In this document: piece by piece, positions 4,715 to 63,873 of the stretch
Position numbering within the stretch: the first letter of the stretch is position 1
Layout of the letters: each line of letters starts with the position of its first letter
NCBI GenBank assembly: GCA_024760905.1
Contig: CM045729.1
Coordinates: 53,183,080-53,247,079 of the forward strand
Source of the DNA: Plotosus lineatus
Lineage: Eukaryota > Chordata > Actinopteri > Siluriformes > Plotosidae
DNA length: 64,000 nucleotides
Direction: 5' to 3'
Translations under genes and position numbers: made by a program
Notes under the pieces: generated by a model
What the model was told of the DNA's origin: nothing
The model's database searches: none
The model's input: only the letters and a program-made list of their open reading frames with translations

Positions 4715-4792
4715 TGGCTTTGTTAGTAATTTGCTTTAAAATTCACTTTATTTAAATTGCTTACATTTGATCATGTTTTTATCACCCTACAG

Positions 4793-4932
4793 AACCACCC
4801 AGAATACGATCCTGCACTATGCCATGCATTTGTACATGACATTTGCGATGATGTGTCCATGTTACCATTTCCTCATGGGAGTCTTGATGTTATTCTTGTG
4901 GTCTTTGTGCTCTCCTCCATTCACCCTGAAAG
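4793..4932 (+). CDS. mettl8: mettl8 exon (SAM-fold core)
   Basis: Acceptor ..ccctacag, donor AG|gtatgc. Encodes [20 protein letters not shown] to SSIHPE plus two bases of the next codon (46 codons + 2 nt). Confidence 0.93.
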
Positions 4933-7900
4933 GTATGCTGTCCATGTATGGTCCTCTTTTCTTTCTTCTTTAATCAAAACCAATATTTTTGTTAATGCAG
5001 TTAGTTAATATGAGAAAGGGGTACAAAAGACATTTTTCTAGTGCATATACATACTACTTTTAATGACCTTATAAAGCGTGTGTAATGTTTGACATGTGTA
5101 AATGGCAGCTTACATATATAGTCTGTCACCCTGAGTTGTGACTTTAATATTAGCCTCATTAAATAAAAACATTCTCCTGTTTTTTCCAAGCTCACAAGAA
5201 GCTCAGGCAGCCTTCTCTGTAGAACCAGATATGTTGGCTGCTGTAAATTGCTGTACATAACTTATGGAATGTGTCCAGGTCATGAAAGGAATCATCTTCG
5301 CTGTCTAAACAGCAGCATTAATAGCTGCCTTTCGGTGCTCACTTCAAATATCACTTAAACACAAGCTAGTGGTGACCATTAAAAACATTTCCTTAACCTT
5401 CTTATATACAACCCTAAAGTCAGGATGGTATGCCAATGAAAAAAGATTTTTAAATAAACTTTGACTCTTATTTCATTGTCGAGAGTATAATCCCAAAATA
5501 TTTCAAGTTTGGTCTGAAATGCCGACAGATACAGTGGATATAAAAAGTATACCCACCCCGTTAAAATATTGGGTTTCTCTGATATAAAAAGATACCCAGA
5601 TAGCAATTTTTCACCATTAATGGGACCTATAACCTGTGCCATTCAACTGACAAACTAAAATATTTTAGGAATAAAATTACAACAAAAAAACCTTCCAGTA
5701 ACCTGGTTGCATAAATATGCATAGCCTTAATTTAATACTTGTCAAGGCACCATTTCATTTTTTTTTGTTTGTTTTCAATAGCATTATCATTATTATTTAT
5801 ATGTTTATTTATTTGTATATATTTTTGAAATAGGAGTCTGTCATCAACATGACAATCTTTGCTCATTCTTTTTTGCAAAAGTGCTCTAAATTTGTTGATT
5901 GGCATTTTGAAAGTGGTGTGTTGACTTTTATATCCACTGTATATCCAACCTGTGTTTCAAGCCTACAAGGTATTCTTTTAAAAATTGCAGTGGTGAAAAA
6001 AGCATTTATCTCTTGGTAATGTTACCATTCCTTCTCACAACACATTAAAGGTACTTGGAGATTGAAGGCATCAATTAATGAAGCATTTCTGGTGTTTCCT
6101 GCAAACAGGTTTTGAGCTTCAGGTGTGCAATAGTACAGGGTCATTAATCACATTGCAAAATTCACCACACATTCTCTGTTGTGGCAGGTCAGTACTGTAG
6201 ACATTCCAGTTCGGCATCCACACTCTCTTCTTCCAAAGCCATACCTTTGTAATACATGCAGAGTGTGGTTTTGTATTCTCTTTTAGAAATATGCATGGTT
6301 ATTGCTGGAAAATGTATAGCCTCAAAAACTCAATGTACTCCCCTTCTTCTGCATTAACCGTGCAATTACAGACATCTTGAGTGCCAAGGGAACTGACACA
6401 ATACCATACCATGACAAACCCTGGATGATCCTTTTTCTTTTTGGTCCAGAGCTCACAGAATACAGATTCATCTTCCCACAGTGCACATTTTTACTGTTGT
6501 GATGGTCCATCCATAGATCATTCCGAACCCAGACGCTGGCTGCCCATTTGGATATAGCCAACATAAAGCTTGGTACAATGAAGTTTAACTGCTATTTGTA
6601 TCTGTAATTTTGACAAGATCTATTCTAACATGGTTGTGGATTCTCATAGCTGAGTTTCTGATTGAATGTAAATAAGGAATGACAGCACAGATGTTCTCCA
6701 ATTTATTTACCTTATAAGTGAGCATGCTTGTTGCTGTTTCTGACCCAACAGAATGCAAGGAGTGCTTAATCGTCTGGCAGGCTACCTGAAGCACAGAGGA
6801 ATCATCCTGTTCAGAGATTATGGCAGATATGATCTAGCTCAGCTGCGATTCAAAAGAGGTATTCAAGCCAAATACTTAAAGATACTAAGAAAATATTTGA
6901 GATACTCCTTGTCAGGTCAGACATGAGCTGTTAGTGATGCTGGCTACTGAGCATATCTGACAAGATTGAGTGCCATAACTATTCTATTATATTTAAACCC
7001 ATTGGACTAGAATAGAATAAAATAGATATTTATTTTAATTGCATCACCATTGAAACACCATTTACCAACTAACTGGTATTGTCATTCTCGCTAAAGAGCA
7101 AAAGGTAATGTGTCCATCTATCTTTCATGTATATACAGGGATCCCTCGCTACTTTGTGCTTCAATTCATGCGGCTTCAATGCATCATGTTTTGTTTTTTT
7201 GTTTTTTTTAAACATTCATCAAATTAAAAAATAAGGAAATTAATGAAGAATAGGTGGAAAAGTTAAGGAAAATGCCACAAAAACAAGGCCAATTATGCAA
7301 AAAAGCCTAAACAAACACAAAACAACACCACTTACATTTTTGTGAGGTGCACATAGGAGTGCGTGCACGCGCATCTGTATGCGTGTGTATTTATATTTTA
7401 ATTACATCTTATGCATTATTTTTTTAATGTTCGATTGTTATTATAAGCATTTATAGCATTGAATATGTATTTATTGATATTATATACACATATACAGTCG
7501 GCCCCCAACTTACAAAGACCCCTGTGCACGAAATCCCCGGGTTACGAAAAACATTTTCCTGAGTTTCCGTCCCAAGATACGAAACAACCCCCTCTTATGA
7601 AAAGAAATTCATACGCGCCAATCAAAATTTGATGCCCGAGTTGCTCTCTCATTGGCTGTCTCTCAACATCCCGCCTTGCTGGGCTCCCAGATAGAAACAG
7701 AAGGAAGCCTCACTCTTTAGTTTTTAAGTTGTTTTAATTCAGTAAATGTTTAATAAATGTGGGTGCATTTGAGCTCATCTGGAATTCCGATCCCTCAAGG
7801 AATCAAATTAAAGTTGAGTTTATCAAGCAGGGAATGCGCTTTGAATTCACGTCTTGTGGGCGTGGCCCGCAGTGTGCGTGTGCAAGAGGGAGACAGAGAG

Positions 7901-8118
7901 AGAGAGAAGGAATAACACTTCAGTTTTTATTTTTTAAGTTGTTTAATTCAGTAAATGTTTAATAAATGTGGGTGCATTTGAGCTCATCTGAAATTCCGAT
8001 CCCTCAAGGAATCAAATTAAAGTTGAGTTTGTCAAACAGGGAATGTGCTTTGAATTCCACGTCTTGTGGGCGTGGCCCGCAGCACGCACGAGAGAGAGAG
8101 GAAAAGAAAGAGAGAGAG

Positions 8119-8152
<34 letters not shown>

Positions 8153-8512
8153 ATAAAAAATGTTTAATAATGGTTTAATTAATAAATCTGTTAATAAAAT
8201 GGTTTAATAAATGATTTACTTTTAATACATATTTCATACAAAATTGGTGTACTTTTATCATTTTTCAAGGGTTTATGGGGTTTATCAAGTCCAAAGACTG
8301 GAGCCTTGGAACGAATTAGGCGTTTAACATGTAAGATGCGACCTCTACTTACGAAATCCCCGCTATACGAAAAGGGCTTTGGAACGCATTAATTTTGTAA
8401 GTTGGGGGCCGACTGTACATATACATCAGTCAGGGGGGGATTGGGGGTGATCCTACTTCGCAGAAGTCGGGGGATCTCGGTTTCGATTAACCACGGAAAG
8501 TGAGGGATCCCC

Positions 8513-8563
<51 letters not shown>

Positions 8564-8717
8564 TGCATTTGTTTCGTTTTCGGCCTTGTTTTTGTGTAAT
8601 TTTCCTGAACTTTCCCCCTATTTTTCCTTAATTTCCAATTTGATGAATATTTATTTATTTATTTATTTTTAAAGCGATGCACTGAAGCTGCATGAATTGA
8701 AGCGCGAAGTAGCATAT

Positions 8718-8753
<36 letters not shown>

Positions 8754-11526
8754 CCCCAATTAACGAAATTAATCCGTTCCAGAGTCCTTTTCGTATTACG
8801 GGGATTTCGTAAGTAGGGGTCGCATCTTACATGTTAAACCTAATTTGTTCCAAGGCTCCAGTCTTTGGACTGTATAAAAAACCCCATAAAAATGATAAAA
8901 GTACACCAATTTTGTATGAAATGTGTTAAAAGAAAACTATTCATTAAACATTTTATTAACATAAACCACTTTATTAACATATATTAATTAAACCATTATT
9001 AAACATTTTTATTAACACACACACCTGCGGACCACGCCCACAAGACGTGGAATTCCTTGAGGGATCGGGATGCCAGATAAGCTCAAATGCACCCACATTT
9101 ATTAAACATTTACTGAATGAAAACAACTTAAACTAAAAACTAAAGCGTTGTTATTCTCTCTCTCGTGCATGCACTGCGGGCCACGCCCACAAGACGTGAA
9201 TTCAAAGCACATTCCCTGCTTGACAAACTCAACTTAAATTTGATTCCTTGATGGATCGGAATTCCAGATGAGCTCAAATGCTCCCACATTTATTAAACAT
9301 TAAACAACTTAAAGAACTCAACTAAAAACTAAAGCGTTATTCCTTTTCTCTCTATCTCCTTCTCTCGGAATTCAAAGTGCATTCCCTGCTTGACAAACTC
9401 AACTTTAATTTGATTCCTTAAGGAATCGGAATTCCAGATGAGCTCAAATACACTCACATTTATTAAACATTTACTCAATTGAACATCTTAAAAAAAACTA
9501 AACTACAGCGTGAAGCTTCCTTCTGTCTCTAGCTGGGAGGCCAGCGGGGTGGGATGTTGAGAGACAGCCAATGAGAGAGCAACTAGCGTGTAGTGTGAAA
9601 TTTTGATTGGCACATTTGAATTTCTTTTCGTAAGAGGAGGTTGTTTCATATTTCAGGGACGGAAACTCAAGAAAATGTTTTCCGTAATCCGGGGATTCAC
9701 TTTATTATTCAAAGGGGAAATACTTAAGCAGTGCTTTCACTGAGGTGAACTGCATTCAGTCGGAGCAGTTCAGCCACACCACTCAGCCAGAGCGGGCAGA
9801 GAACAGAGTTAGAGAATACAGTATGAGTGATGAGTTAATCTTCTGGTGCAGAGCTGAGCGTGCTTGTGTTTATTGGGAGTAGATGAGAAGAGTGAATTCA
9901 GGTGTGAGCCACAAGCAGCTCAGCCACGCCCCTCAGCCTAAGCTGAAAGAAAACAGAGTTAGATGAGCACAGCCGCCAAAATCAAAGTCCCCCAAAAACA
10001 CAAATCGTAACAAAACGACCATAAAACAACAAAGTGTAATAAATTGGATAAACAAAACAAAAAGATAAACATGCTACACCACAGTACATAAAATCACACA
10101 CAAACATTCTAAACATTAACTTGGGTACTGTACTGGAATAATAATTGAAAAAGACTTTAATACTACAGTTCATTACAACAGTTCAGATGATTATTCCTAT
10201 TCAGGCACCTCAGAGGAAACTCGTTTTTTTCAGGAGAAAGCCTTATTTCTTCAGAAGAGACAGCCGACGTCATTACCTTTTTCTGGCGCTTAGCCGGCGT
10301 TTGAGTGGCATTATAGAGCTTAACTGGTAATTAAAACACACTAAAAAAAGCTCATTGACAACTTGTGCATGAATTAGGAAAAAGGGACATATACATCTCA
10401 ATTAATCAGCAGGAAGGAGGACAGCCATTGGCTGAATTTGAATCACGTGACAGTTGCTCGGCCATCTGCAAATATGCGCACACGCGAGTGCAAAACCGTG
10501 AATAGTCAAGGGCCTACTGTACTGTATTTTGTTGATGGATAGATTGCTAAAATGTTGGTCTGGGTGATTTAAGGTTTGAACCCTTTATGTATATGGGAAA
10601 ATTGACATTGTAGACTCTTCAATGTTACTGATATTTTTCCAGCCAAAGTCACACTATATAGTGCATCAGACAAATTTATTATCGATGATCCAGATCATGT
10701 GTAGCCCTCGCCATCCAATTCATTTTAAATTATTTATCATGTTTTGGGATAAAAGAGAGGGAACTGGTCAATCTTGTGAAATAAACCCTGATCGGGTCAT
10801 GCAGGATCTTCAGTGGGGTGACTTAAATCAGCCTTAGTTTCCTGTACATTATCCCATTTCTTCCATTGCTGTTATTATTAGCACACAATATTGATTTTGT
10901 TTATATTGATTTTTAAATTGTTTTATCACCATCAATAATAAAAGTATATAAATTTAAAATCAATACAATACATTAAAATCAATATTGTCGGCTGACTTAT
11001 TGAGTTCATTGTAACAGTATCTAAGTAAAAACGTCTTGATTATATATTAATATATTATAATATTATATTAATCTGTAAGTATTGTAATCTAATGATTGTA
11101 ATTCTGTCTTGGATTGTTCTTATCTTGTACACATGCATGGATTAAACTTTGAAAAATGAAAATAGAATATTCTTTTTTTATAGGACAGTGTCGGTCTGAA
11201 AATTTCTACACTCGACAAGACGGAACTTGTGTATATTTTTTTACGAAAGGTAACAGTGAAGCTTCAAAACTACAAATATAGCAGTGTTCATGCTTACCTT
11301 TACATTCTTGGCATGTGCCAACTTTCTAATTAAATGTAACTTCTGTTTGTATTCAGATAAATGTTGACACCTGTGTTGTTTTGTAGATGAGGTCCATTGG
11401 TTATTCACAAATGCTGGCCTGGAGGAGGTTCAGAACCTGGAAGATCGGAGAATTCAAGTAAATCGTGGAAAGAAAGTGGTGATGCATCGAGTATGGATGC
11501 AGAGCAAATATCGAAAACCTTCCTGA
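4793..11526 (+). CDS. mettl8: METTL8-like tRNA N3-methylcytidine methyltransferase, C-terminal half (4 exons)
   Basis: Exons: 4793-4932, 6752-6858, 11184-11249, 11387-11526, with phases 0/2, 2/1, 1/1 and 1/stop, all in one frame. The product is the C-terminal half of a class I SAM-dependent methyltransferase. Readable landmarks are [27 protein letters not shown], the family signature FRDYGRYD followed by [17 protein letters not shown] and YFFTKDEV, and the terminal [17 protein letters not shown] block ending KYRKPS-stop. This matches METTL2/METTL8 closely. METTL8 is preferred because VHDICDD...VLSSIHP resembles METTL8 and because TLK1 lies directly downstream, as in human. In mammals METTL8 makes m3C32 on mitochondrial tRNAs (known for the family, not visible here). 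The N-terminus and first SAM motif lie left of the window. The usual LLKPGG turn reads YLKHRG here. Confidence 0.9.
5532..5939. mobile_element. Tc1/mariner-type MITE, 408 bp
   Basis: CAGTGGATATAAAAAGT at the left and ACTTTTATATCCACTG at the right form near-perfect inverted ends. TA dinucleotides flank both sides (5530-5531 and 5940-5941), the standard Tc1/mariner target duplication. No coding capacity. Confidence 0.85.
5960..6640 (-). mobile_element. Degenerate DDE transposon remnant (fish repeat)
   Basis: The minus-strand translation contains segments like [39 protein letters not shown] and, further left, DNA matching a common fish DNA-transposon tail (minus strand: lost PSDLSPIENVW-type region near 6170-6230). 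It is heavily decayed. I place it only at the level of a Tc1-like DDE element. Confidence 0.55.
6752..6858 (+). CDS. mettl8: mettl8 exon (FRDYGRYD signature)
   Basis: Acceptor ..cccaacag, donor G|gtattc. Completes R, then [20 protein letters not shown], the METTL2/6/8 signature [15 protein letters not shown], and one base of the next codon. Confidence 0.93.
7495..8415 (+). mobile_element. Tigger-like MITE 'TigB' nested in TigA
   Basis: CAGTCGGCCCCCAACTTAC at the left is exactly inverted at the right (GTAAGTTGGGGGCCGACTG). TA flanks both ends (7493-7494, 8416-8417). The inside carries a direct duplication of about 209 bp (units near 7735-7900 and 7944-8105), whose two copies give the unrelated-looking short ORFs at 7759 and 7966. 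Ends at a (GT)n run plus AT-rich tail. Confidence 0.85.
8121..8150. repeat. (GT)n microsatellite
   Basis: Pure GT run inside TigB. Confidence 0.95.
8511..8716 (-). mobile_element. Partial TigA copy plus (CT)n(AT)n
   Basis: A CT/AT run at 8511-8560 is followed by the left half of TigA in reverse orientation, ending ..GAATTGAAGCGCGAAGTAGC. Confidence 0.6.
8718..9699 (-). mobile_element. TigB-family MITE, reverse orientation, with three internal units
   Basis: Follows an (AC)n run at about 8718-8751. It shows the family signatures in reverse: AACGAAATTAATCCGTTCC, TTCGTAAGTAGGGGTCGC, and at the far end the ATTGGC and GAAACTCA..TTTCCG blocks. The internal GGAATTCCAGATGAGCTCAAAT unit occurs three times (about 9050, 9240 and 9425) against two in the copy at 7495. 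The right terminus is degraded. Confidence 0.75.
9700..10519. mobile_element. Probable Tigger-like MITE, one end visible
   Basis: The right end reads ACCGTGAATAGTCAAGGGCCTACTG, the same terminus as the element at 35954-36474. The left end is not clear. Confidence 0.5.
11184..11249 (+). CDS. mettl8: mettl8 exon (NFYTRQDGT)
   Basis: Acceptor ..tttataggac with exon from 11184, donor G|gtaaca. Encodes (G)[21 protein letters not shown]. Confidence 0.93.
11387..11526 (+). CDS. mettl8: mettl8 terminal exon
   Basis: Acceptor ..ttttgtag. Encodes [20 protein letters not shown] to QSKYRKPS and stops at TGA 11524-11526. Confidence 0.95.
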
Positions 11527-14811: not shown

Positions 14812-15149
14812 ATCATTTTCTGTAAACGCTTAATCCTAATTAGGGTCCCGGGGAGGCTGGCGCCTATCCTAGCTGACTCCAGGCGAGGGTATAGTACAGC
14901 CTGGACAGCTTGCCAGGCCATTGCAGGGCGGAAACACGCTGATGGCTTCGCAGCGACTCTTGTCGAAAGTCAGCAATGTTGGTTCTTTTACATGCCTCAC
15001 ACCATAGACAGTGAAAGACATGGCCAACCCTTGATAACCCAGTTAGCTGCACTGGGGAGACAGTGATAACCTTGTGGAGAGTGGGACTCGAACCACCAAC
15101 CTTTGGATCAGCGATCCAGCGCCCTATACCACTAGGCCACCACTACCCC
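14812..15149 (-). mobile_element. Chimeric SINE: SINE-A head joined to SINE-B tail
   Basis: Read on the minus strand, it begins with the tRNA-like head of SINE-A (B box GGTTCGAGTCC near 15090) and its body down to GCCATCAGCGTGTTTCC. It then switches at about 14930 to the SINE-B tail (CTGTCCAGGC..ATTAGGATTAAGCG). CTTAACAGATC (14801-14811) and CTTAATAGATC (15150-15160) flank the whole as one TSD with a single mismatch. Confidence 0.7.
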
Positions 15150-17840: not shown

Positions 17841-18530
17841 CTCAGCCTTCCTTCCGTCAGTGGAGTATGTGTGTGGGGTTTATGCACGTGAACATCGCCA
17901 TAGTGTCTCATCGCTGCACACGGGTGACTAGTGACGCTTGTGATTTTCACCTCATTCTCTCCACCAGACGCAGTGCAGAGCCGCGTGAAGGTTTGTGTCC
18001 GATTTTCCCCCCCTCCTCAATAAAATATATATAATAAACAAACAACAAAAAAAATGCAAGACACGTGAATGCACGCACTGGGAATTGATTTCGTAAATGC
18101 ATGCATTAGGAGTGTTTTGTAGGAAAGGGTTGTGATTGTTGTCGACCATTTTTGTTTGCTTTGTCGTTCCCAAAAGTAGCTTTGATGAGTGTCCAAAGTA
18201 AGTGGAAGTGCTGGAAGTTTGGAGGAGGGGACGCCATCTTGGTCCCGGCTCTCCACGTCCCCAACACCACGGCTGCTTTCTCGGCAACACGGCGCGACTC
18301 CGCTTGAGGCTTAGCAAGGTATCGTGCACATATTTCTTTCTTTTATGTCCGGGCTTTCGCTTTTAGGCGGTGTTTTGTTTGTGCGAGCTTCCTGCGATTT
18401 AAAATCCCGTTCTGAATCGAGTTGTGCCGAGACCGTTGGTCGGTCGGTCGGTCGGCGCTCGCTGGGTTTATCAGCGCTGGCTAGCCTGTTAGCATGCTAG
18501 CATGCTACTGTAGTACAGTGTGGGGAGCTA
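17841..18530 (+). promoter_or_regulatory. tlk1: CpG-rich putative tlk1 promoter and first-exon region
   Basis: CpG dinucleotides are clearly denser here than in the flanks (for example around 17880-18000, 18230-18310 and 18410-18480), and the stretch surrounds the tlk1 first exon. A (GGTC)n run follows at about 18437-18455. No TATA box is obvious. The transcription start cannot be placed from sequence alone. Confidence 0.55.
18185..18318 (+). CDS. tlk1: tlk1 first exon with degenerate N-terminal extension and two candidate donors
   Basis: ATG 18185 starts MSVQS, the known beginning of vertebrate TLK1. A +1 frame change follows at about 18200. From 18201 the shifted frame reads SGSAGSLEEGTPSWSRLS and TSPTP, clearly the TLK1 extension, and then meets TAG at 18312-18314 just before the donor CAAG|gtatcg (18319). 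In the ATG frame the ORF ends at TGA 18305-18307. A second donor, AAA|GTAAGT at 18198, would end the coding exon at 18197 in phase 1. Joined to the exon at 33153 it gives MSVQS-AMDEL without a stop. If the long donor is used, translation must start at ATG 33158. An assembly error remains possible. Confidence 0.6.
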
Positions 18531-20719
18531 TAAGGTGTCTGTGCTCGCTGTGAAGTAAAACCCATCAACCAACTAGCTCAGGGGGGGGATCAACGCGGTT
18601 TAACTGCCAGTCTTTTTATTGAGCTGAACGTTTGCATTTGGACAGAAATAGAGTCGAGAATAGAAGATTTTGTGTGTAGTTTTAGAACAAGTCTGAGTTG
18701 ATAACACTGAGATATCGCCGAGAGTTTGTTCAGCAAGAATGTGCTAGCAAAGATGTCTGATTTTGTATACAGTACTGTATGTGTGTGTGAGTGTGAGTGA
18801 GGTCAGCTCTTTTGACATCATGGAGGACCTGAGCTTGTTTTGGTGAAGACTTTCCCTCCCATGTCTCTGGTGTAACTTTTACCTCACAATGAAATGATCA
18901 TCCTCAGTGGTAACCGGCTCGTCTCTCTCTTGGCTGGGAGTTCAGATGAACGCTTTTTATTTATATTCATATTCCCTGCATGTACAATTCATCTCATGGA
19001 GACGAGCAGGGTGTTGTTGCTTTGCACAAATTGCTCACCAAGCCAAGCGTCGGTGTTGATCCTGATGAGCTCTGCACTCGTCGCTCCAAGTGTCAGTGTA
19101 TAATCACACTTGTTGTTTTGCTAGTCAGGACTTTCAACTTCTGCCATTTTGACCCGAGTGTGTTACTCTTGCAATAAAATCTATTGATTTGGAACAAGAG
19201 TTTGCAATAAATGACCTTTTTAACACACTGATGTGACCATCATTACACACACCATAGTAATCTGAAACACACTGTGCCCTCAACCTTCTCTCAAGAGCTG
19301 GAATATACACTTCAATCCTCTTTCTCTCTCTTTTGAAGAAGCGTCCTAGTGAGTTGGGTTCAGTTTACAGGGATGTTGAAAGGATTTCATCTCCTACTTT
19401 TCCTCACACTTGTTAGCTGATTAGCAAAGCTGACAACAATACTGAACCTTGATTGTTATGGGATATTTCATCTTAATGAGTTTCCCCCCCCCACACTGTA
19501 GAAATTATCAAAGTTCTCAGCTCACCTGTTTCATAGAACTGACCTTTAATTTGTTGCTAAATGTTGTGCGAAGCCATGAGAGGTTGGTATATTTAATTTT
19601 AAAAGTACGAGTGTGTCATAAACAGGTGGACACCCCGCTCTGCTGAAGTGCATTGAGAGCTAAAATGACATCCACTGCATTCTAAGGGTTCAACCGCTTC
19701 TCTGTGCAGGGGCTTCAAATTGTTGCCTGTGTGTGTGTGTGTGTGCGCGCGCGCGCGCATGTGTGTGTGTGTGCGCGCGCGCGCACTGAAAACCTATGCA
19801 GAATGTCAAGGAAATGATGCCTCCTAACCAGATGGGGTGGGGGGAATTACTATTCCTGTACTCCACTCTTCACCTACTGTGGGTTGCACTTTTTTTCCTC
19901 TTCAGTCTTATTTAGGAAAGCACTAAATTGCAAGTGATCAACCCTTATGGATCTTTCCACACTTGTCTGTTTCTATTAGCATTTTGTTCAATATATATTT
20001 TTCTGCACCTCATAACTTTCTCCTAATCACTGATTGTTTTAAGAGGTGATTGAATAATTCATCACTCTTGAAGCATGTTCTGCGTGCTGCATTGTTCCAC
20101 TGTGAGCAAGCTCACCACCTTCTCCACTATTTCGTACCATTTATTTCTGCTTCCAACTCTGTGTGCCATCTTCAACCTGTTTGTCCTCCAGCTGATAACA
20201 TGGCTGATCTTTGCACTGCCATTTTGTGTCAGGCTCAGTGTGTTTGGGGCGTCCATGTTGGCTCCTCACACTCCAGAGAGTGTGTGGGCTAAGGGTGGAT
20301 TAAAGGAGCGCTGCCAGCCACATACTGTAGTGGCAGTTCGAGCAGAGCAGAGTTATGGAGATGAGTCTGAGCTCAGCGGTCCTGCCTTTTCCATCTCTCA
20401 TAACAAGTAGATAAATAATTTAGTTAATCAGGTTAAGGCCTGATTTTTGTTAAGGTGGGTTTTTTCACCCTCTTCTCCAGAAATCCAGCAATATCGAAAC
20501 TCGGGTCAATTTGCTGTGATGCTACCACCTGATTTTATAACTTCTTACATCATTAAATTTACTATTAGCAGGGAAGTTCTCCATAGATGCTAATGTTGTG
20601 AGGCAGTCATTCTGGTACCTGAAAATATACACTTGTGCATAGTAACACATATTTAGAAATCTATGAGTTGATAGATTAATTTTTTCTAACACCAGAACAT
20701 TTATTAGCATAAAATAATA
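18319..20719. other. tlk1 intron 1, first part
   Basis: No exon seen. Contains GCTAGCATGC-type short palindromes near 18490 and a (GT)/(GC) run at 19727-19787. The ORFs around 18894-20410 have no recognisable domain. Confidence 0.5.
19727..19787. repeat. (TG)n(CG)n microsatellite
   Basis: Alternating purine-pyrimidine tract mixing TG and CG repeats, a potential Z-DNA former. Confidence 0.9.
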
Positions 20720-21209
20720 CAGAGATCCTCACTTTCCACGGTTAATGGGGACCGAGACCCCCTTGCAACTGCCGATTTTTGAGAAGTAGGATCGACCCCC
20801 CCCACCCACTGACACATACGTACATGTATATTTGTATATGATATCAATAAATACATATTTAACAATATAAGTGCTTATAACAAATAACAATTAAAAATAA
20901 TGCATAGTATGTAAATAAAATATAAATACAGACGCACTCACGCACACATTCAGATGCACACCTCACATAAAAATGTAAATAGTTTTGTTGAGGTGTTTTG
21001 GGTTGGGTTTTTTGTTTTTGTTTTTTGAGTTTGTTTGTTTTTTGTTTTTGTTTTTTGCATAATTGGCCTTGTTTTACAGCATTTTCCTTACATTTTCCCT
21101 CATTTTTCATTAATTTCCTTATTTTTTATATTTAGATGAATATTTTTGAAAAACCCGTGATGCACTTGAAGCCACAGAAACTGAAGCACGAAGTAGCAAG
21201 AAATCACTG
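20720..21209 (-). mobile_element. TigA MITE, intact 490-bp copy
   Basis: CAGAGATCCTCACTTTCCACGG at the left and GAAGCACGAAGTAGCAAGAAATCACTG at the right, with TA on both flanks (20718-20719, 21210-21211). Best uninterrupted copy for defining the family. Confidence 0.8.
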
Positions 21210-21481
21210 TATTTTGTCTATCTCTGTACAGCCAAGACAGTGATTCAGAAACTCATCAAAATGCTCCTCAAATTCATCACATGCATGCTTATTTTTTTGC
21301 CTTACTAAAGAAATTTAAATCTTATCCATATTATACAAACTGTTGAGACACTGTACATGAAACATGAGCAGTTTACATCCTGTAGCTTTAGTAAGCAGCA
21401 CCCGAAAGAAATAATAAGTTATTATATTTTATGGCAGAGACATACTAATAAAGTGCCACATTGCTTTCATGACCTCATGGA

Positions 21482-21503
21482 GTGTGTGTGTGTGTATGTG
21501 TGT

Positions 21504-21533
<30 letters not shown>
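21482..21533. repeat. (GT)n microsatellite
   Basis: GT run with a few TATG interruptions. Confidence 0.95.
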
Positions 21534-21534
<1 letters not shown>

Positions 21535-23654
21535 GGGTACTATATAGGAACTGCATTTGATATTCTGTGAATGGGGGAAATTAGATCTGCCAATCTCTTA
21601 TCATTTGAATGATGTATTAATCTGGAGTAGAGCTTCTGAGATGTTCAGAAGTTAGTACATTAACTAACAATGTAAAGTTATTTGCAAATTATTGGCGGGA
21701 GCAGGTGGCTCCGATAGCATTATTATAGATAAACATTATGTTAATAGCATTGTAAACCTTATTATATTTTGTGATTTATTGAATATTATTGTGGTCAAAT
21801 GTGGAGAAAACACAAAACATGTAACGCAGAAGTCTCATGAACGAGTCCGTTGATGAGGTATTCAGTATGTATGTATTGTTGTGGTGGGTTGGTGGTATAT
21901 GCTGAGTTTTCACAGCAGGATTTTACAGTGCCTTTTTTTTCCTTGTCATGACAAAAAAAATTCTAGAAATGAAATGCAGCTAGAAAAATATTGACATTTT
22001 AAACAGGGCATTAAAAACAAAAAAAACTTTATTTTATTTGTAACCTTTTTAATGTATAGATACAGTGATCTGATCTAATTTTGGTGCTTGGAACAAAACC
22101 AAGTGCTAAATTGCAAATGCTTTAACTTTATAAATGAATGATCTCTCTCTCTCTGTCTGTCTCTGTCTCTCTCTCTCCACCTCTGATCCTTTACTTGCTA
22201 CTTTGGAAGTGTTATTTCTGGTTTATTGGTGCAGTTGTGTATGGATGGCTGTAATTATAATTTTTGTGTATGTGTGTTGGTGGGTGGGGTGGGGGAGGTT
22301 GGTTGCTATGTTAGACATTGATGCTCAGACAGCAGTGACTTGCTTTCTGATTCCCACTTGGTCAGATTTGTGTGTCATTTTAGACCATATTAAACAAAGC
22401 CATGTTTGGGGCTATTTAAATAGTGTTTTACTTTTATTCATAAAATAAATAAGTGATGCATTTTGACTGAGTCATTTTTAAAGTTGATCAGGATTTCATG
22501 AATCACGACCCTACATGCTGAGCGTTATGGATTCTGGCTCTCTGTTCCAGTAAAAGCAAAAAAGGAAAGGTTTCAATTTGCTGACGCTTTGAAGTCTTTC
22601 TTTTAACACTGAATCTGTATAGGGTTGACGCATTTCTGGCAGATTTCTTGTTTTTTTTTTTCCTCCTGTGAATGTATTTTATGGCTTGCTTAAAATTGAG
22701 TTGTGCTCATTAAATGACCTAATGGAAATGTGCATAGATAAATCCATTATACTGTGGTCAGATTTAGGCTTTTTCCGTTTTAGATCATGCAGGTTATTGC
22801 CAGTATTGGTTATATTGACTTTACAATTGCATAAATTTGTGTCCTTTCTCTATAGTTGATGAATCCTCTACTTGAAGATTGTTTTTGGTCAGGTCCTGCC
22901 TGCATCTGGAATATTGTACTCAAATACAGTGCTTTACAGACCTGAACTCAGTCTGCTGTTTGAAGTTCTGTATAATGGTTCATTGTGTTTCTCTGATGCT
23001 TGCAAATAAGACCTCATTGGAAAACTTGTCAAGTGGTTATTGTGTGTTTCAGAATGAAGCCTTGCGTCATTTGGCAGAACGTTATTTACTGGACTACATC
23101 ATGTGTGTTACATGACATTTCTCAGGTTACCCTGTGGTCTGGTCTGAAATATCCTCTGGCTGCTTTTCCAGATTGTTGTGCTCACATACAGCTTTGAGGC
23201 AACGATCTTTTCTTTTTTAAAAAAAAAAAAAAAAAGGCTTCCTCAATTTGTGTTCTTTGAACATGACTACATCATTCATTTTTTTAGAATCAGGAACAGT
23301 TATTTACTTCAGGCTGTAGTGATAACATGGAGAGAGGTGTGTTAATTAGGTAAATAACAAACATTGCCTGTCATTTAGAGGCAGCATTAATGCTGTGTGT
23401 TCATCTATACCTTTTAGAATTAAAATCTGTATCCAGAATCAGTCAGCGTACACCCACTATGACATTACTGTACACGAGCATCCCAAATAACATAGAATGG
23501 GGTATACATAGAGCAGCACATCGACTTCACCCTCTTTCTCCTCAAAATGATCCACGCTGGCGTCCATCTTGGCTGTCTTACAGTTCTTTCTCTATTACCT
23601 GATCTGGTGTGTCTCCAGGGGTATATTCTACCCCCCATTTCTTTCTCTTTCACT

Positions 23655-23655
23655 G

Positions 23656-23722
<67 letters not shown>
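23655..23722. repeat. (CT)n(AC)n microsatellite
   Basis: CT run changing into a long AC run. Confidence 0.95.
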
Positions 23723-23725
<3 letters not shown>

Positions 23726-23789
23726 TTTTGTATTCTCTGCCCCTCTTCTTCCTCTACCTTCCCATTTTTAAGGCACAGAGAGCTAGGCT

Positions 23790-23829
<40 letters not shown>
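23790..23829. repeat. (GT)n microsatellite
   Basis: Pure GT run about 70 bp after the AC tract, so the two can pair as an inverted repeat. Confidence 0.95.
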
Positions 23830-23831
<2 letters not shown>

Positions 23832-25843
23832 AGAGAGGAGCTAATCGTGTTTCTGTTCAGCCTGTGTGTGTCTGTGAGACAGGAGTGCACATTAAGCTCC
23901 TGAATGTACAGAGCTTAAATGCTTTATGGGAACAATCTACAGTAGAGCCAAATGAAGTTAAAGACTAAAGAGGGCTTAATGAAGCTTCGAGCTAAGTAAT
24001 ACACGAGTAAAGAGGAGTGTTTATAATTATATTCTCTCCCCTGTCTGTGCACGCTCAGACCACAACTTTAAATGTGAGCGCGCTTTCTCGTGCTTGCTGT
24101 TTGGTTTGTCTTTTTCGCACTACCTACTAGTATATATATCCCAGAAGCCCTCAACTTTATCTAACTGCCTTGATTGTAAATGACATTTAATTTAAATTCA
24201 GTTCATGTTGTGTGAAGAAGCAATAGAATTATCAGCAAGTTAAAATAACTTGAGTACTTTTGACTTAAAATGGGACTTGACTCTCTGGCCTCTTTTTTTT
24301 TCCCCACCGATGAAGCCTTAGACCTTTGCTTGCATATCATTTCGGGTTTTCCTGACCCTGCTGCTAAAGTGATATTTTCAAACCTATGCTGCTTCCTGAA
24401 TTGGTCGTTTTTGTAAAGCACAAAATTAAGGTTGACAGCATTTTAGAGAACAGTATTTTATTTATTTATTTCTAATCCAAATTTGAACTTCAATTCGAAC
24501 AAGGTATGTTTAAGTCTTTTAAGACTGTTTAAAGGTTAAAGGGCTTAAATGTACTTTGTTGATTTGAAGTTCAAATTCTGCTTAAAATAATACAGAAAAC
24601 CCTACAATTTTAAATGTAAAAACGTTGTAATGAGGTTTTATTAATGTAATTTCTGTAAGACTTTTTAAAGAACATGCTATCATTTTCATGTATTAGATTT
24701 CCTACAAAACAAATGACCATAATCTTACATAGGTGTCAATATCATGCAGGTTTTCTGGCCTTTTAGTTTCTGTTTATATTAGAGCACCGGGGAACTGCAT
24801 TGCTGAAACACTGGCTTCAGTGGTTCTGAATGAGGAATAGGGAAAATTGAAAAAATAATTTTTTTCTTATCTTTTTTAAAATCCAGAACTGGAATATACT
24901 GACCCTCCTTTATTTTACTTTAGAAGAAAAACTCAAATGTGCAGCATCTGCTTAATATATGAGGGCAATACATTAAAGTTTTCCCCTGACCCACTTTTGG
25001 TTTATATTGGAGACTGGAATTGTATATGTATAATAAATCATATCTCTATAGGTGACATGGTAATTTTGCAGATCTGAGCTCTGCAGTTTCTTTTTTACAG
25101 GAGCTGAGGTGAAGTAATGGAGCCAGTTGAATTCAGAGTTGTGTTCAGATTCTTGTGCTTAAGAGGCCACTCACCATGGGAGACGTTTGATGAGACTTGT
25201 GGTCAGGACGCCCCATCATATGATGGTAGTCAAGCACTGGAGTCGTCAATCCCCTTTCTGGGTGACCACCATTTGTATGGCAAGTGCAGGCCACTGTCTT
25301 GCAGGATTGCTGCATAAACTTTCACCAACTATCCCAAAATATAGAGATCAGTATCGTTTCTGTGGAAAACATCATCCATGACCATTTGCACATGTAGAAC
25401 TTGTCTGCATATTGAATCCTTGATTGCTCACACCGTTCCATGAGCAGGAATGAGTCACATGCTCCCAGGCTCATTTGGCCATATGCCACCCCCCAAAACA
25501 AACCAGTAGGACTTATTCAACATATTAATTATACAGAATGAAACATGCGTCCATCACTAAAATCCATTGGAAGAATTATGATTCTTGAGCTTAAAATAAG
25601 GCTTATGTCCAGCTCTCGGTGGGCAAGGTCATGCTCACAGTTGGGACCGGCATGGAGTATTGATGGATTTCCTGGTGAAGCTACCACAATTACTAGGTCA
25701 TTCAACACTTAATTGCTGCTGAAATTGTGGAAGGCCATCAGAGCCAAGAGGTGTGGCATACTGACCAAGGTGTCCACCTCCTGCATGACTGGTTTACAGC
25801 TTGCATGTTGCCCAGAAGGACATGGCACTGTGGTTATGAAGTA

Positions 25844-27111
25844 CAGGGTGACACAAAAAACGGGAACTTTTAACAGTCCAATAAAACAAAGAGTGATGGA
25901 AGAAAAATGTTTTATTCATAGTACTTGAAACCTTAAAGCATGTCATTCAAGAAACAATAATGGAATTTTCTTTTTCTTTTTTTTAATTACTTCCTGTACG
26001 AATGCATTCTTGAAATCTGCTGTTGAGATTGCTCATTAACCACTGCAACATCACAGCTGGGATACTGTGAATTTCATCCTGAATTCTCTGTTTAACTCAT
26101 CCAGAGTTCTTGGTTGAGTTGTGTACACTTTACTCTTGAGAGAGCCCCACAAGAAAAAAAAAATCACAAACGGACAAATCTGGCGATCTGAGAGGCCAGG
26201 GAATGTTACTAAATCTTGAGATCAAGCGGTTACCGAACAATTCTTGCACAACCTCTAATGATTGCCGTGCAGTGTGCGATGTCGTTCCATCCTGTTTAAA
26301 CTAGGTTTCTTGAACGTGTGGAAAATTGTTCAATTCAGATGTAACGAAGGATTGTAGCATCTCCACGTAACGATTCACAGTGACTGAGATCCCCTGTTTA
26401 TTTAAAAAAAAATAAGGTCCGATGATCCCATGTAATGAACTTATCACGCCATACTGTCACCTTACTAGCGGGTAAAGGGCGCTCATGAACTTCATTAGGA
26501 TTTGTGTTTGCCCAGTAACGGTAGTTCTGCTTATTCACGTAACCTGTGAGATGAAAATGGACTTCATCTGACATCCATAACTTGCTTAGAAATTCATTGT
26601 CATTGTTTATGTTTATCATTTGTTGACAGAATTCTAATCGCAGCTGGTAATCGTTTTCCCTCAATTGTTGCACTATCTGCAGCTTGTATGGATGAAATTT
26701 CAAATCTAAAGTAAGAATTCTGCAAACCCTCTCCTGGGACTTTTCAACCGCAGCTGCTTGCTTACGAATTGAACGCCGTGGGCTCCGTAAGACAGACTCG
26801 CATACAACATCAATGTTCTCTGGAGTACGAGCACTTCTTGGTTGTCCTGTTGGTTTCACGTGTTTTGATGAAACAGCACCATGATGTTTTAAGTTGTAAA
26901 AACGTCGGAACTCCCTCTGCGAAGCTGACAAACTATCACCGTTTTTATAAAACATTTTTATGGCTAACACACACTGTTGCCCGTTCCATTGATCCATGGT
27001 TACTAAAATGGCGGAGTGTTTACTTGCTCAATGTCAATATCTTGCATTGCTGCCACTTGCTCATGTCTGTCAATACGCACTTCAGAAATTCCCGTATTTT
27101 GAGTCTCCCTG
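25844..27111 (-). mobile_element. IS630/Tc1-mariner-superfamily transposon inserted in the mariner
   Basis: Inverted ends CAGGGTGACACAAAAAACGGG and CCCGTATTTTGAGTCTCCCTG with TA on both sides (25842-25843, 27112-27113). It lies between two pieces of the mariner transposase, so it is the younger insertion. Confidence 0.88.
25930..26997 (-). pseudogene. Transposase pseudogene of the nested IS630/Tc1-like element
   Basis: The open part, 26997 down to 26398, encodes 199 residues: N-terminal helix-turn-helix region, GQPRSARTPENIDVV linker, RSPRRSIRKQAAAVEKS, KFHPYKLQIVQQL, then the first catalytic block SDEVHFHLTGYVNKQNYRYW and HERPLPASKVTVW. It ends in a frameshift before the second catalytic Asp. 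The rest continues in other frames to about 25930. Inactive. Confidence 0.85.
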
Positions 27112-27240
27112 TACTTCATCAATCCCCTTATTCTCTCGATTTTACACCAGCTAACTTCCACTTCTTTGTAATTATAAAGTTATTTTTTGAAGAGCAAGCA
27201 CTCCCCAGATGATGAAACAATGATTTCCATTAGGCTGTGG

Positions 27241-29075
27241 CTCCTGATACAACTTGCAGACTTCTACAGGTGAGATCTGTAATTTGGCGATTGAGTGATC
27301 GAACTTCGATTTAGAAGCAATAATCAAAATAATCGAGCAATGTTGTCAGCATTACACAGAAATCCTAAAATAAATGATCACTTCCAGTTGCTGCCGCTAT
27401 CGCCCTAACATCTTGCGATTTGTGTTGAATTGGGACACATGGTAGGAAGGATCCTTCAATGTATTAATGGGAGAATTCTTTTTTTCTTTCTTTATAGTAG
27501 GTCAATGTGATGGACAAGTTTATTTATCCAAATTCAAATGCTGGAGCACTGACGTCATCTGCAAAACTCATTCATAAATAATTACAAGCTGCTCCAGTAA
27601 TGACATCCCACCACTGCTGCCTTCTTTGTGTATGCACGAGATCTCATATAAACCAAAATGCCGTTGTGACAAATAGAAGGCGATTGCCGCTTCAGAGCAG
27701 AAAATAAGTGGAAAATCACAATAAATCACAGAATTGCATCTAATATATGGGAATCATTATTAAGTAAGATTTAATTCTTGATATGAGCTGTCATAGGTCC
27801 AGTCAAACAATTATCCTATAGTTTTATCTATTGTTACAGGCCTAGTTTTGAGAGCCAAAGTAAGTTGAAAATGCAATATCGCCAAAAATACATCCTTCAA
27901 AGCATAATCATAAACATGACAGTTTAAGTATACTTGTTGAAGAAAGGGTTCCATGTCCAGATTGTTGTGAAGCAATAAAAAAAATTCACGTATGCTATTC
28001 ATTTTTTTTTTTTAAACCGGTTTTGTGGTTGCTCTCATATAACATATAACAACAAATAATTAAAAAAAACAACAGAAGCATCAAAACAGAAACAGCTTGG
28101 TGAAAATAGAAGACATCTGTTGCTATGAAGACTGTATGAAGATTGCGCTGATTGGATGAGAGACGTATTTGTTTAGTTTATGGATGTTACTAATTTAAGG
28201 ATGTGGACATTCAGGAAAACTGGTTCTGTAACTGCAATTGGTATTTTCTCAGAAGTAACAGTTCCTGATTAGAAACATACACAGTGATGTAATTCGGTAA
28301 AAAAATTTTTTGCTATAATCATCCATTATACTTCATTCGGAAGCACATTCAATTCCCTTTCCAAATATATGGAACATGTGCCAAATTTCCTACTGGATCC
28401 ATATTGTGCTAGAGCGGGTCACGGTTATTTATGCACTCAGAGGTTTTTATATCGAGCAGTTAAGATACGCTTATTATTCCTATTACAGTAGACTCGTTAT
28501 TCAGACTGAAATTTCTACTTAAAATGTAAAGAAGTGGTTGGAAAAGTTTTCATCACGCCTCTGTCCAGAACATTCTAGCAACTAATTTTCTTTGCTCAGT
28601 TTTATGGTATCTTGTTGATTTATTTTTAAGTATTACATCTTCAAGGCTGTCATACTCCTCTTTCTCTAAGCATTTTGTTTTAGTAACCTACTTCTGGGAT
28701 CTAAAGCTAGTGGAGTCAAGGGGGCATGTCCCTGTGGAGAGCAGCTCTGCAGAAGGTACACTAGTAGCTGACCCTCTTTTGTTCCTAGGTTGTTTGGTTG
28801 AGCTGAGGACAGAAGTCGCTGTTTTTGATGTCTTTGTGGTATGTTAAGGTGAGAATAATGACAGACTTCATGTCTCAGGCAAAGCATGTGACCGTTTTTC
28901 ATTTATAGTGCATGATGCACAGTTGATGTGGAGTGTGCTGGTTAGAGAAGAAGGAAATAAGTGGACATGACCTTCAGCAGTCCAAGGGATGGTAATAAAT
29001 TTTGGCTTTATTGATGTACATGAGGTGGCTGAATTGAGCCGCGTTTAGTGTTGCCTAGCATTCATCTGTTTTGAC

Positions 29076-29127
<52 letters not shown>

Positions 29128-30264
29128 GGGGGGGGCATATCCCTGTATTATTTTTGTGGCTCTGGTCCTATGTAATCTTGCACTAACTTGCTGAAATTGC
29201 TGTAGAGCTGTGATGGTGGCTCATTAGAGAGATGCAGTGGCAGCCGAGTAGACCCCGAGGAGAGTACCAGCACTGTGTAGCCTGGAGGATCCTCAAAGCT
29301 ACGGCCAGGCCTCTGTGCCTGAGGGGTCGGTTGAGCCCACAGTTTCAGTGGGACACAGAGGGAGAAATGTGGACATCGAAAGAGGGGAAGAATCTTACAA
29401 AAGCAAGAGAAGGAGAAAATGTATGCCAGTGTTATTTTTGTTCAAATGTCATTTCTAATGTGCTTGTGTTTGAGCAGTGCCAGTGCAGGAAAACTCTATT
29501 GCACCATGCTTCAAGTCTGCTTCCAATATTCATATTTTTAGACTTTCCAGCAATTTCAGTTGGCCTCACAAACCTCAGCCTCATGACAGTCCTAAGTTGT
29601 ATTAAGTTAGGTTTTGTTTCATCAATTACACAGTGTTACACATTGTCCTCTCCTCAGTGGTTTACCACATCCTTGAATCTCACCATTTACTACAATTCCT
29701 GTGCCATTTTTTTTTTCTGGTCCCTAGTGTCTGGTATTATGAATTGATTCTTATGCGTGTATTAGTGTTTTTGTAGTGAAGATATACCATGTGATAAGTA
29801 CAGCTGCGTTTTTTACAAGTTATGGTTGAGTAATGCACACAGATCTCTTGGGACCACTTCCTCTGTTAGGTGTTTGGGGCAGTCAAGCCGTGCCTGTGCT
29901 TCCAGCCCTTATGAGGTGTCAGCGTATACAATGTTTTTCAGAATTATTGGCACCTTTCATGAGCATGCATCAAATAAATACAATAAGCCTTTCATTATTA
30001 AAAAAAAAAAAAAACTCAACATGGTTGACATCCCCAGGAATTATTTTAAATAAAAGCAGACAAATTGTATTTCTTGAAAAAAGGTTCAATTTTCTTAGAA
30101 GGAAAAGGGAGCCTTCTGTTGAATTTAACCATACAATACAATACAATACTCTTTGTCAGTAGTGCTATATGAGGGGCACACATGTAAAATCCCTTGTCTT
30201 TAATTTGGGGGAGATGGGACATCAAAAATTTTGAACACAGAGACTGATTTATGTTGACTAGCAC
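27241..30264. other. tlk1 intron 1, no supported gene
   Basis: Contains a (GT)n run at 29079-29124 and a 171-codon ORF at 29232-29747 starting MQWQPSRPRGEYQ, without recognisable domain or splice context. The GC-rich start of that ORF (29220-29420) stands out from the AT-rich intron. Confidence 0.5.
29079..29124. repeat. (GT)n microsatellite
   Basis: Pure GT run followed by a G run. Confidence 0.95.
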
Positions 30265-30644
30265 TTTTAGTTCTTTTTCTTTTCCTTTCGGCTGTGACCT
30301 TTCAGGGTCGCCACAGCGAATCATCTGCCTCCATCCTCATGGAAGTCATATTAATGATTCGCATATTCAATTTGACGTAGGTTTTCACGTCGGATGCCCT
30401 TCCTGACACAACACTTAGCAAGGGACACAAACGCGCTGACGGCTTTGCAGCTACTCTTGATGAAAGTCAGTAATGGTTCTTTTACATGCCTCTCACCATA
30501 GACAGTGATAGACATGGCCAGCCATTGATAACCCAGGTAGATGCACTGGAGGGGGACAGTGGCAACCTTGTGGAGAATGGGACTCGAACCCCCAACCCTA
30601 AGATCAGCGATCCAGCACCTTTACCACCAGGCTACCACTGTCCA
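30265..30644 (-). mobile_element. SINE-A, full length
   Basis: Minus strand: tRNA-like head with GGGGGTTCGAGTCCC near 30590, the standard body, the LINE-like tail AAGGGCATCCGACGTG, and an end matching the RTE LINE 3' terminus. Flanks GTTGACTAGCAC (30253-30264) and GTTGACTAACAC (30645-30656) are the TSD. An extra ~40 bp (near 30325-30365) sits between the two LINE-derived pieces. Confidence 0.85.
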
Positions 30645-31438
30645 GTTGACTAACACTAGTTATGTTTATGAAAACTACTAATTTTAAATATTTGAATAAT
30701 ATACTTTTTTGAAGCAGCATAGTGGACGATGAAGGGGGTGGAAAAAGAGCCTCATGCTCCGGTAAAGAACACACCCAAGCTGATTTTTGTGGTTTTTAGA
30801 TTTCAAAATCAACAGTTCAAGTCCATTCTATCAAGAAAATGTTTAAAAGTATTACATGGAGGAAAACTGTCAAAAGGCAGCATCTGAAGAAACACTTCTA
30901 TAGTATGTGTCTTAAGGCCACATGAGAGATGGTCTATGGGCATTGTTTCTTATTGAAAGAAGAGACCGAAATGAAACCTTTTAGTCAGTGTTCAATAAGG
31001 AGAGGATCACTGATACATTGGTGGTGCTTCCATTGAATTCAGTCTAATACAACCTCCCAGAAAGAGTTAAAGAAACTGAAAACTGTGTTTTGCATGTCTC
31101 AGCTCAGTTTGCACAGTTGAACAGCAGTAAAAAATCCTGTGGCCTGAACCCAAGCGTGACATCCACATGTACACACCTAAATACCTAAATAAAAGAGCTT
31201 TAAAATGCTTTGCATGAAGTCCCCTCTCTGTGTCTCAATCTTATTTCAACATTACATTAAGGGATGAGGAGCTGTCGTTTTCTTCAGGTTCTGTGTCACA
31301 AAATATTAGTTTGTAAGGGTTACGATCATTTTAAAATGTGATAGTGTATTGTACACAAAAAATCACCACAAACTTTTTTTAATTTTAAATCTAGCTATGT
31401 AATATCCCTGTATTTGAGCTCCATGTGTAACATATTGC

Positions 31439-31446
31439 ATGTGCTG
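31439..31446 (+). repeat. 8-bp TSD of hAT-2 copy 1
   Basis: ATGTGCTG, repeated exactly at 32559-32566. Confidence 0.88.
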
Positions 31447-32558
31447 TAGGGATGTCATTGACTATCGGAATATCGCCGATATAATTATGTCGATCGATAA
31501 TTGATACCTATAAAAGGGGTATCGATACTTCTAACGTTATAACTTCCTGTGTTCATGACAGCGTCTGTAGTAAATGCCATTTCAATGACACCCCGAGTAA
31601 ATGGTACGTCCCGCCTCGCTGTATGGTAAATGGTACGTCCCGCCTCGCTGTATGGTAAATGGTACGTCCCGCCTCTCTGTATGGTAAATGGTACGTCCCT
31701 GCTTCTAGTGTGCCGTCAGAGCGCATGTTTTCAACAGCACGGAACATTTTGAACAAGAAGAGACGCTTATCACCGGATAATGCAGATATGTGCATCTTCT
31801 GAATCTATGCATCTATTTTTGATTCCACGTCACTGTGATACGCAGCAGAGAGCCAATCCTTTATGTACTCCACTGTGTGGGCGGGTCCGATAGCTTCAAA
31901 CTCCAATTTTATTGGATTATAACAACAGCCACAGACTGCGCGTGTTGTTTGAGTAAAGAGATAAATTTCCCTCGTTTTGATCGGCTCATTTCCACGAAGC
32001 CAAGCACAGCTGGCAAACAAACACAAATGGACGGACATGGAAAAACTTCAACCCGCAGAGCAGCTGATTGCCTTCCTGTCACATAAACACTGCAGCGTGT
32101 GAATTCAATAAAATTAGAGCTTCAAGGTATCCGACCTGCCCACACAGAAAGGATTGGCTCTCCACCTTCAATGCACAGTGACGTGGCATTGAAAATAGAT
32201 GAATAAATTTGCTCTGAGCAGTTAGAAAGTGAAACTGCACCATCCTCTGCTTGGCCTTTTAAGATGCTGGCGCTGTCAGCAGCGCGAACAACCGTCGTAC
32301 GCAACACTTGCACTGCACTGCCATGAATCATGCTTCACCACTTTTGTGGTCGTCAAGTCGATCAGATGAAACTTGAATAGATCATAAGTCGACGACTCAC
32401 TGTATTCAATGCATTATAAAAACTACTGTAATATATCTTAGTCTGTTCTATTTAATGCATTTATGAAACAGTACAGCAATATTCCAATCTATCGATGCAT
32501 CGGAAATTTTTTTTATCAATATATCGATACCAATAATAGGTTTTCAATGACACCCCTA
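31447..32558 (+). mobile_element. hAT-type element 'hAT-2', copy 1 (1112 bp)
   Basis: TAGGGATGTCATTGA at the left and TCAATGACACCCCTA at the right, with exact 8-bp TSD as expected for hAT. Inside are an ATCGATA-rich subterminal zone, a 29-bp minisatellite (GTAAATGGTACGTCCCGCCT plus nine bases) at about 31600-31697, and a transposase C-terminal relic. From about 31805 a MITE-4-related block follows, including that MITE's terminus GACGACTCACTG at 32391-32402. Confidence 0.88.
31707..31800 (+). pseudogene. hAT transposase C-terminal relic in hAT-2
   Basis: Reads VPSERMFSTARNILNKKRRL then SPDNADMCIF and stops. This is the hAT dimerisation (hATC) motif with its PSER..FS-A-NI core. A second copy with the same content is at 39935-40028. 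Confidence 0.85.
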
Positions 32559-32684
32559 ATGTGCTGTATCTTCAATTATAATATTTTTTTAAGATGCATA
32601 CATAAAATGTTTGTGTGTCCTTTTGGGGTGTGGGTGTATAAGTAGCCTAGGGAATTTGGAAACAGGAGGTGGTTGTGTACTTCC

Positions 32685-32687
<3 letters not shown>

Positions 32688-32739
<52 letters not shown>
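32688..32739. repeat. (TG)n microsatellite
   Basis: Pure TG run. Confidence 0.95.
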
Positions 32740-32740
<1 letters not shown>

Positions 32741-33152
32741 CATGCACGTATCCTCTATATCTTTTTGACAAAAATGTGTTAATATATCTATATGTGCAAC
32801 AATGAACTGTTCTAGTGCAACAGTGTAGGAAAATTTGGCCTGTGCAACAGACTGCTTCCAGCAGACATATTTTTAGTCTTGTGGGCAAAAATGCCAACAA
32901 ACACATTTCGGAAATCCAGGAAGTCTGCATCCTTGTAGTAGATAGTTGGCCGTCCATGATAGAACACCTTGTATTCTTTTAAATGAATGCTTTAGAAATG
33001 ATTTAAGACTTTGCTTTGTAAAAGAAGTTAATGTTGCTCCTGGTAATTGGTGACTTTTTATTGTTCAGTTCTATGAAGCCTGTGCTTTATACTCTGTCAG
33101 CCAGTAAAGTTTTGCACATGAGTGAAGCTCATTGAGACACATGTTTACACAG

Positions 33153-63873
<30,721 letters not shown>

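Follow-up and report, generated by a model that had tools for sequence, protein, structure and literature searches.

Disruption of the N-terminal extension in exon 1 of a fish tlk1 gene

TLK1 yields several proteins through the choice of start codon, among them a vertebrate long isoform that starts with MSVQSSSGSLEG/MSVQSNSGSLEG and an isoform that begins with MDEL or MEEL at a second start codon, AUG2. The window considered here (the whole 64-kb stretch of DNA that was analysed) contains a tlk1 gene whose first exon no longer reads through from its own start codon, AUG1, which raises the question of whether the N-terminal extension can still be made and where translation of the kinase starts. 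The original prediction offered conversion of the extension into intron, through a splice donor created at the break itself, and, failing that, a short upstream ORF followed by a start at AUG2.

The tlk1 locus and the lesions of exon 1

The gene is tlk1, as predicted: its kinase-domain and upstream exons are collinear with TLK1, 18 of them in order from exon 2 onward, and the assembled protein, from which an optional 39-base exon was left out, is 98.2% identical to a model of the catfish Ameiurus melas (P0002) over the 622 residues shared. The exons and the neighbouring gene are placed as follows.

4787-11526, + strand: matched exons of mettl8, lying 5' of tlk1 in the same orientation, from protein matches; TGA at 11524-11526
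33153-33271, + strand: tlk1 exon 2; acceptor 33152/33153, AUG2 at 33158
34460-34531, + strand: tlk1 exon 3, from exon placement
45080-45118, + strand: optional 39-base exon, in frame and intact, flanked by AG and GTAAGT; Ameiurus P0002 contains its residues
47452-63828 (47452-47527 to 63717-63828), + strand: 16 further tlk1 exons, in frame, with AG/GT borders

All 18 exons have AG and GT borders, contain no stop and keep phase, and the gene runs past the end of the window with its frame still open there. The retention of phase and splice sites, together with a difference from Ameiurus at only 11 of 622 residues, indicates that tlk1 is under constraint. The nearest relatives among the proteins found are those of two catfishes, Ameiurus melas (611 of 622 residues identical) and Bagarius yarrelli (P0071; 556 of 570 identical, 14 differing in the shared part), and the third-nearest among the proteins compared reaches 94.5%. 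Between the two catfish proteins there are 7 differences in 583 residues. By these sequences the window gene comes from a catfish or a close relative of catfishes, probably from outside the Ameiurus-Bagarius pair. Names referring to the teleost duplicates 1a and 1b are mixed among the tlk1 matches. In the Bagarius and Xyrichtys annotations mettl8 is fused to tlk1. Arrays of a 29-base unit (GTAAATGGTACGTCCCGCCTC...GTATG) occupy two different tlk1 introns, at 31597-31699 (3.6 copies) and 39794-39925 (4.6 copies), and tRNA-like Rfam matches lie on the minus strand at 15073-15146 (35.5 bits) and 46305-46378 (34.9 bits); the latter two are possibly, at a guess, tRNA-derived SINEs.

Exon 1 is present with its MSVQS start and its phase 1 join to exon 2, and its frame is broken. 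Its features, all on the + strand, are these.

18185-18318, + strand: tlk1 exon 1 with the conserved long donor, from sequence and tblastn; it encodes the N-terminal extension in relatives
18185-18187, + strand: AUG1, context TTTGATGA, T at -3 and A at +4; same core as human TTGAUGA (PMC8757695)
18197-18203, + strand: frame break with a +1 shift, AGTAAGT where relatives read SNS or SSS, from comparison with relatives
18198-18203, + strand: candidate donor-like GTAAGT (AAA/GTAAGT), phase 1; matrix score 4.09, U1 pairing -5.1 kcal/mol
18305-18307, + strand: TGA closing the 40-codon frame-0 ORF from AUG1, from sequence
18312-18314, + strand: stop codon TAG of the extension frame, where the Ameiurus and Bagarius models have Lys (LLEAKQG)
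18319-18324, + strand: long donor AAG/GTATCG; matrix score 0.84, U1 pairing -5.7 kcal/mol

The break matches the original description base for base: MSVQS is read from the ATG at 18185, and the frame then shifts by +1 at 18200. Frame 0 (MSVQSKWKCWKFGGGDAILVPALHVPNTTAAFSATRRDSA) continues with 35 unrelated residues until its TGA, 40 codons in all, and the +1 frame yields SGSAGSLEEGTPSWSRLSTSPTPRLLSRQHGATPLEA from 18201 up to the TAG, the second lesion that had been reported, past which it gives QG and enters exon 2 in phase. The shifted frame was recognised correctly as the vertebrate TLK1 extension: in tblastn searches of window bases 1-33152, Clupea harengus P0003 matched 18189-18326 (E 4e-14) and Bagarius P0071 matched 18201-18320 (82.5% identity, E 3e-17), values that place the likeness beyond chance, and the window extension also matches Amia and others. 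The frame change is further supported by the length of the exon, since the 134 bases counted from AUG1 leave the long donor in phase 1 only if the shifted frame is read. Thus no frame stays open across the extension between AUG1 and exon 2, one ending at TGA 18305 and the other at TAG 18312. A start codon upstream in the +1 frame is ruled out by a TGA at 18186, directly before the extension.

The window gene is like that of the vertebrate long isoform in gene, exon order, exon 1/2 phase, start context and +1-frame extension, but differs from it in the broken frame after MSVQS and in a stop codon shortly before the extension ends. A net indel of -2 (or +1) in the codon after MSVQS would have broken the frame of the AUG1 isoform, and the change from Lys to stop is a further lesion in the extension frame, the order of the two being presumptive. 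Relaxed constraint on the extension as a sign of loss was not seen when the window-Bagarius pair was set against 59 other, non-independent pairs with 2-3% body divergence: the two extensions differ at 17.1% of 41 aligned residues at a body divergence of 2.5%, and the other pairs have a median extension difference of 9.1% (middle half 6.7-25.2%).

Start codons and donor sites

AUG2 at 33158 (context GTGCTATGGATG, G at -3 and G at +4) is the next ATG in the kinase frame; it lies in good context and the frame downstream of it is open. The core contexts in the window are TTGATGA at 18185 and GCTATGG at 33158, and in PMC8757695 human AUG1 (TTGAUGA) is described as less favoured than AUG2 (GCAAUGG); judged by these start contexts, the two codons of that paper would be the MSVQ and MDEL starts. 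Many fish tlk1 models begin at MEEL or MDEL. The window resembles the gene of the AUG2 isoform in having AUG2 in good context and an intact downstream frame, but differs in that AUG1 yields a 40-codon ORF and no longer form of the kinase. In the spliced long form this upstream ORF ends 16 bases before AUG2. Such spacing is too short for efficient reinitiation, and AUG2 is therefore more likely to be reached by leaky scanning or through a different first exon.

A 40-codon upstream ORF followed by a start at ATG 33158, the second option of the original prediction, fits better than the turning of the extension into intron, because a weaker AUG1 and a stronger AUG2 have been published for TLK1 (PMC8757695). 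The reading favoured here, which we regard as fairly probable, is that of a functional tlk1 that has lost its optional N-terminal extension, retains the long exon 1 and starts the kinase from AUG2. The transcript would keep the conserved long exon 1 with its donor at 18318; AUG1 would now head merely a 40-codon upstream ORF, a weak brake at most; and the kinase (MDELQ...) would be made from AUG2 at 33158, the presumed main start, which ribosomes would reach by leaky scanning across the weak AUG1 or on transcripts with a different first exon. Alternative first exons, hinted at by the varied N-termini of many fish models, could bypass exon 1 altogether. The loss may be tolerated because elsewhere the main form is already made from AUG2, or because the extension is retained in a second tlk1 copy. 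Two observations count against this reading, namely that the 18198 donor outscores that at 18319 by weight matrix (4.09 vs 0.84) and that the extension is not visibly decaying (17.1% against the 59-pair median of 9.1%).

The first of these points to a different outcome, in which the indel gave rise to a functional donor at 18198: exon 1 would shrink to 18185-18197 plus 5' UTR, the extension would be intronic, and the kinase would carry MSVQS-A before MDEL. Both donors are in the sequence as described, the one at 18198 in phase 1 and the long one with its GT at 18319, and joining 18197 to 33153 does give an open MSVQS-AMDEL reading with no stop. With general background values for the base frequencies of the matrix, the 18198 donor scores higher than 12 of the 18 donors assigned in tlk1, a level reached by just 1.3% of the 4061 GTs of the window, and the long donor higher than 6 of 18. 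U1 pairing at 18198 is stronger than or equal to that at 6 of the 18 tlk1 donors but falls a little short of the old donor (-5.1 vs -5.7 kcal/mol), which equals or surpasses 10 of 18, and base -1 of the 18198 donor is A. Neither score decides which of the two donors is used. The + strand of the window contains 17 copies of GTAAGT, so that the donor-like word is unremarkable on its own, and that it falls at the break is in part dictated by the sequence around it. The predicted MSVQS/AMDEL junction (region 1-44) was searched against 5.8 billion proteins, and MSVQS joined to exon 2 was not found among the best 120 of 381 matches; none of 188 retrieved proteins has MSVQS or a near variant within three residues of M[ED]EL. 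As such a junction protein should rank near the top, this is evidence against a donor of the 18198 type in annotated fish, in a database that may lack the species of the window. Six percomorph models flagged as disrupted, described below, also still include the long exon. The proposal that the extension became intron through 18198 is thus not supported, and the rescue splice is possible but unsupported; we consider it unlikely, though second best to the ordinary loss of one optional isoform, which is favoured.

A very unlikely variant adds an upstream exon at about 17882-17990, spliced to 18180, giving a new N-terminus in frame with MSVQS, with or without the donor at 18198.

17882-17990, + strand: possible upstream exon, reads MHVNIAIVSHRC...SAEPRE and would join 18180 in the AUG1 frame, suggested by one annotation model

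Over 38 residues the window is 94.7% identical to the 5' part of Ameiurus P0002, and the join 17990/18180/18197/33153 is open. However, the exon comes from that single Ameiurus annotation model, whose re-entry at QHG would need an AG where the window has CGG; the likeness of two catfish 5' UTRs may be mere DNA conservation; and the donor at 17990 (AAG/GTTTGT) scores 0.43, above 4 of the 18 tlk1 donors.

Origin and age of the break

Among 81 retrieved proteins with an M..QS-type start, 73 continue with N or S and do not have the shortened form. The loss of two bases proposed as the origin of AGTAAGT is plausible but is not the sole route, as a gain of one base also yields the window string. That string results from 2 of the 17 two-base deletions in AGT-AAY-AGT, from 1 of 17 in AGT-AGC-AGT, and from 1 of the 64 one-base insertions into the shorter form AGT-AAT-GGA. 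A two-base loss likely produced AGTAAGT, as one of several paths.

In the Ameiurus model exon 1 breaks off at MS and resumes at QHG, and the Bagarius model, fused to METTL8, enters exon 1 at the break. Neither of these two catfish models reads straight on from MSVQ, so that the break is perhaps not private to one assembly. An MSVQS-type start is present in none of 25 catfish, characin and knifefish models, a set that was chosen by name, drew in part on the best 120 of 381 matches, and includes both tlk1 types and many UniProt-only entries. These comparisons of protein models suggest that the loss of the extension is older than this genome. That exon 1 contains an error of sequencing or assembly is highly unlikely. 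The break amounts to a difference of one or two bases, but neither catfish model of this tlk1 copy reads MSVQ directly into the extension, and the second stop in the same exon makes two separate lesions, at 18200 and 18312, which argues against a single read error.

A partial Sinocyclocheilus anshuiensis model, P0046, starts in frame 0 of the window (EWKFGGGAILAPA; EWKFGGGAIL) and is back in the normal frame at LAPAKEG, a further sign that exon 1 is misread or broken in some fishes. In collections without fish DNA, pattern matching for relatives of exon 1 gave 32 viral-contig and 278 genome-contig stretches, none of which was confirmed.

A search with the extension of Epinephelus P0006 returned 20 proteins, six of which are percomorph and all named LOW QUALITY PROTEIN (P0005, P0006, P0010, P0011, P0012 and P0036, from Poeciliopsis, Epinephelus, Etheostoma, Solea, Gymnodraco and Syngnathus); the remaining 14 are non-percomorph and do not have this name. 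The six are one residue short right after QS, at the site of the window break, contain no X, and differ from one another at 4.9-26.8% of 41 extension residues. By usual NCBI practice, a disrupted model that lacks an X has had bases taken out, the correction that a single extra base would call for. The prefix is given to some models in which the assembly contains disrupting frameshifts or stops (PMC4028053). These models are like the window in missing a residue at the same place and in being flagged by NCBI as disrupted, but unlike it in having an extension without a stop and a position of disruption that would follow from protein models. Seven of the 81 proteins with an M..QS-type start lack the residue and six of these are LOW QUALITY, compared with none of the 73 that bear it, and one does not fit. 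The Fisher p of 2e-8 for this association is not to be trusted, as all six come from a single clade, NCBI names are lacking for some of the 73, and the label list was entered by hand.

That the same exon 1 codon is broken in catfishes and percomorphs, independently or anciently, with the shifted extension conserved in percomorphs, is a tentative and quite improbable reading. Against it, there is a second difference between the models and relatives (PTP.LLSQ vs PTRTCFQ), at which a base may have been taken out; the seventh residue-lacking protein, medaka P0083, which is UniProt-only and has no NCBI name, reads MSIQSSGSLEGT unlabelled; and the six species, being of one clade, may reflect one event. 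Fourteen percomorph models of another tlk1 type keep an unlabelled extension, namely P0087, P0110 and 12 that carry QSNSGSGGGSLEAT or a close variant, and Gymnodraco carries both types (P0012 and P0107); with a spare intact copy, loss in one tlk1 copy would be easily tolerated. If the same-codon break were true, either a repeatedly arising GTAAGT donor would make the extension an optional intron, or recoding would preserve the extension. Recoding by +1 frameshifting in the window itself is hardly credible, since, although the six percomorph models with the same missing residue stay 73-95% identical to one another in the extension, TAG 18312 lies in the window extension frame and the full extension would also need readthrough.

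Meaning of a probable loss of an optional isoform

Human Thr38 presumably lies inside the extension, by our count on the human sequence. It is named as a predominant TLK1 phosphosite in PMC13299901. A literature search judged by titles and abstract starts found no title on a break in tlk1 exon 1, and none was found that connects frameshifting with LOW QUALITY PROTEIN.

A fish tlk1 without the AUG1 form would be a natural knock-out of one isoform, and could reveal the role of the extension. Of these results, the recurrent trouble with exon 1 in further teleosts deserves to be followed: if the percomorph hint is true, exon 1 would be a case of repeated loss or rescue of an optional isoform in many fishes, masked by 'low quality' labels.
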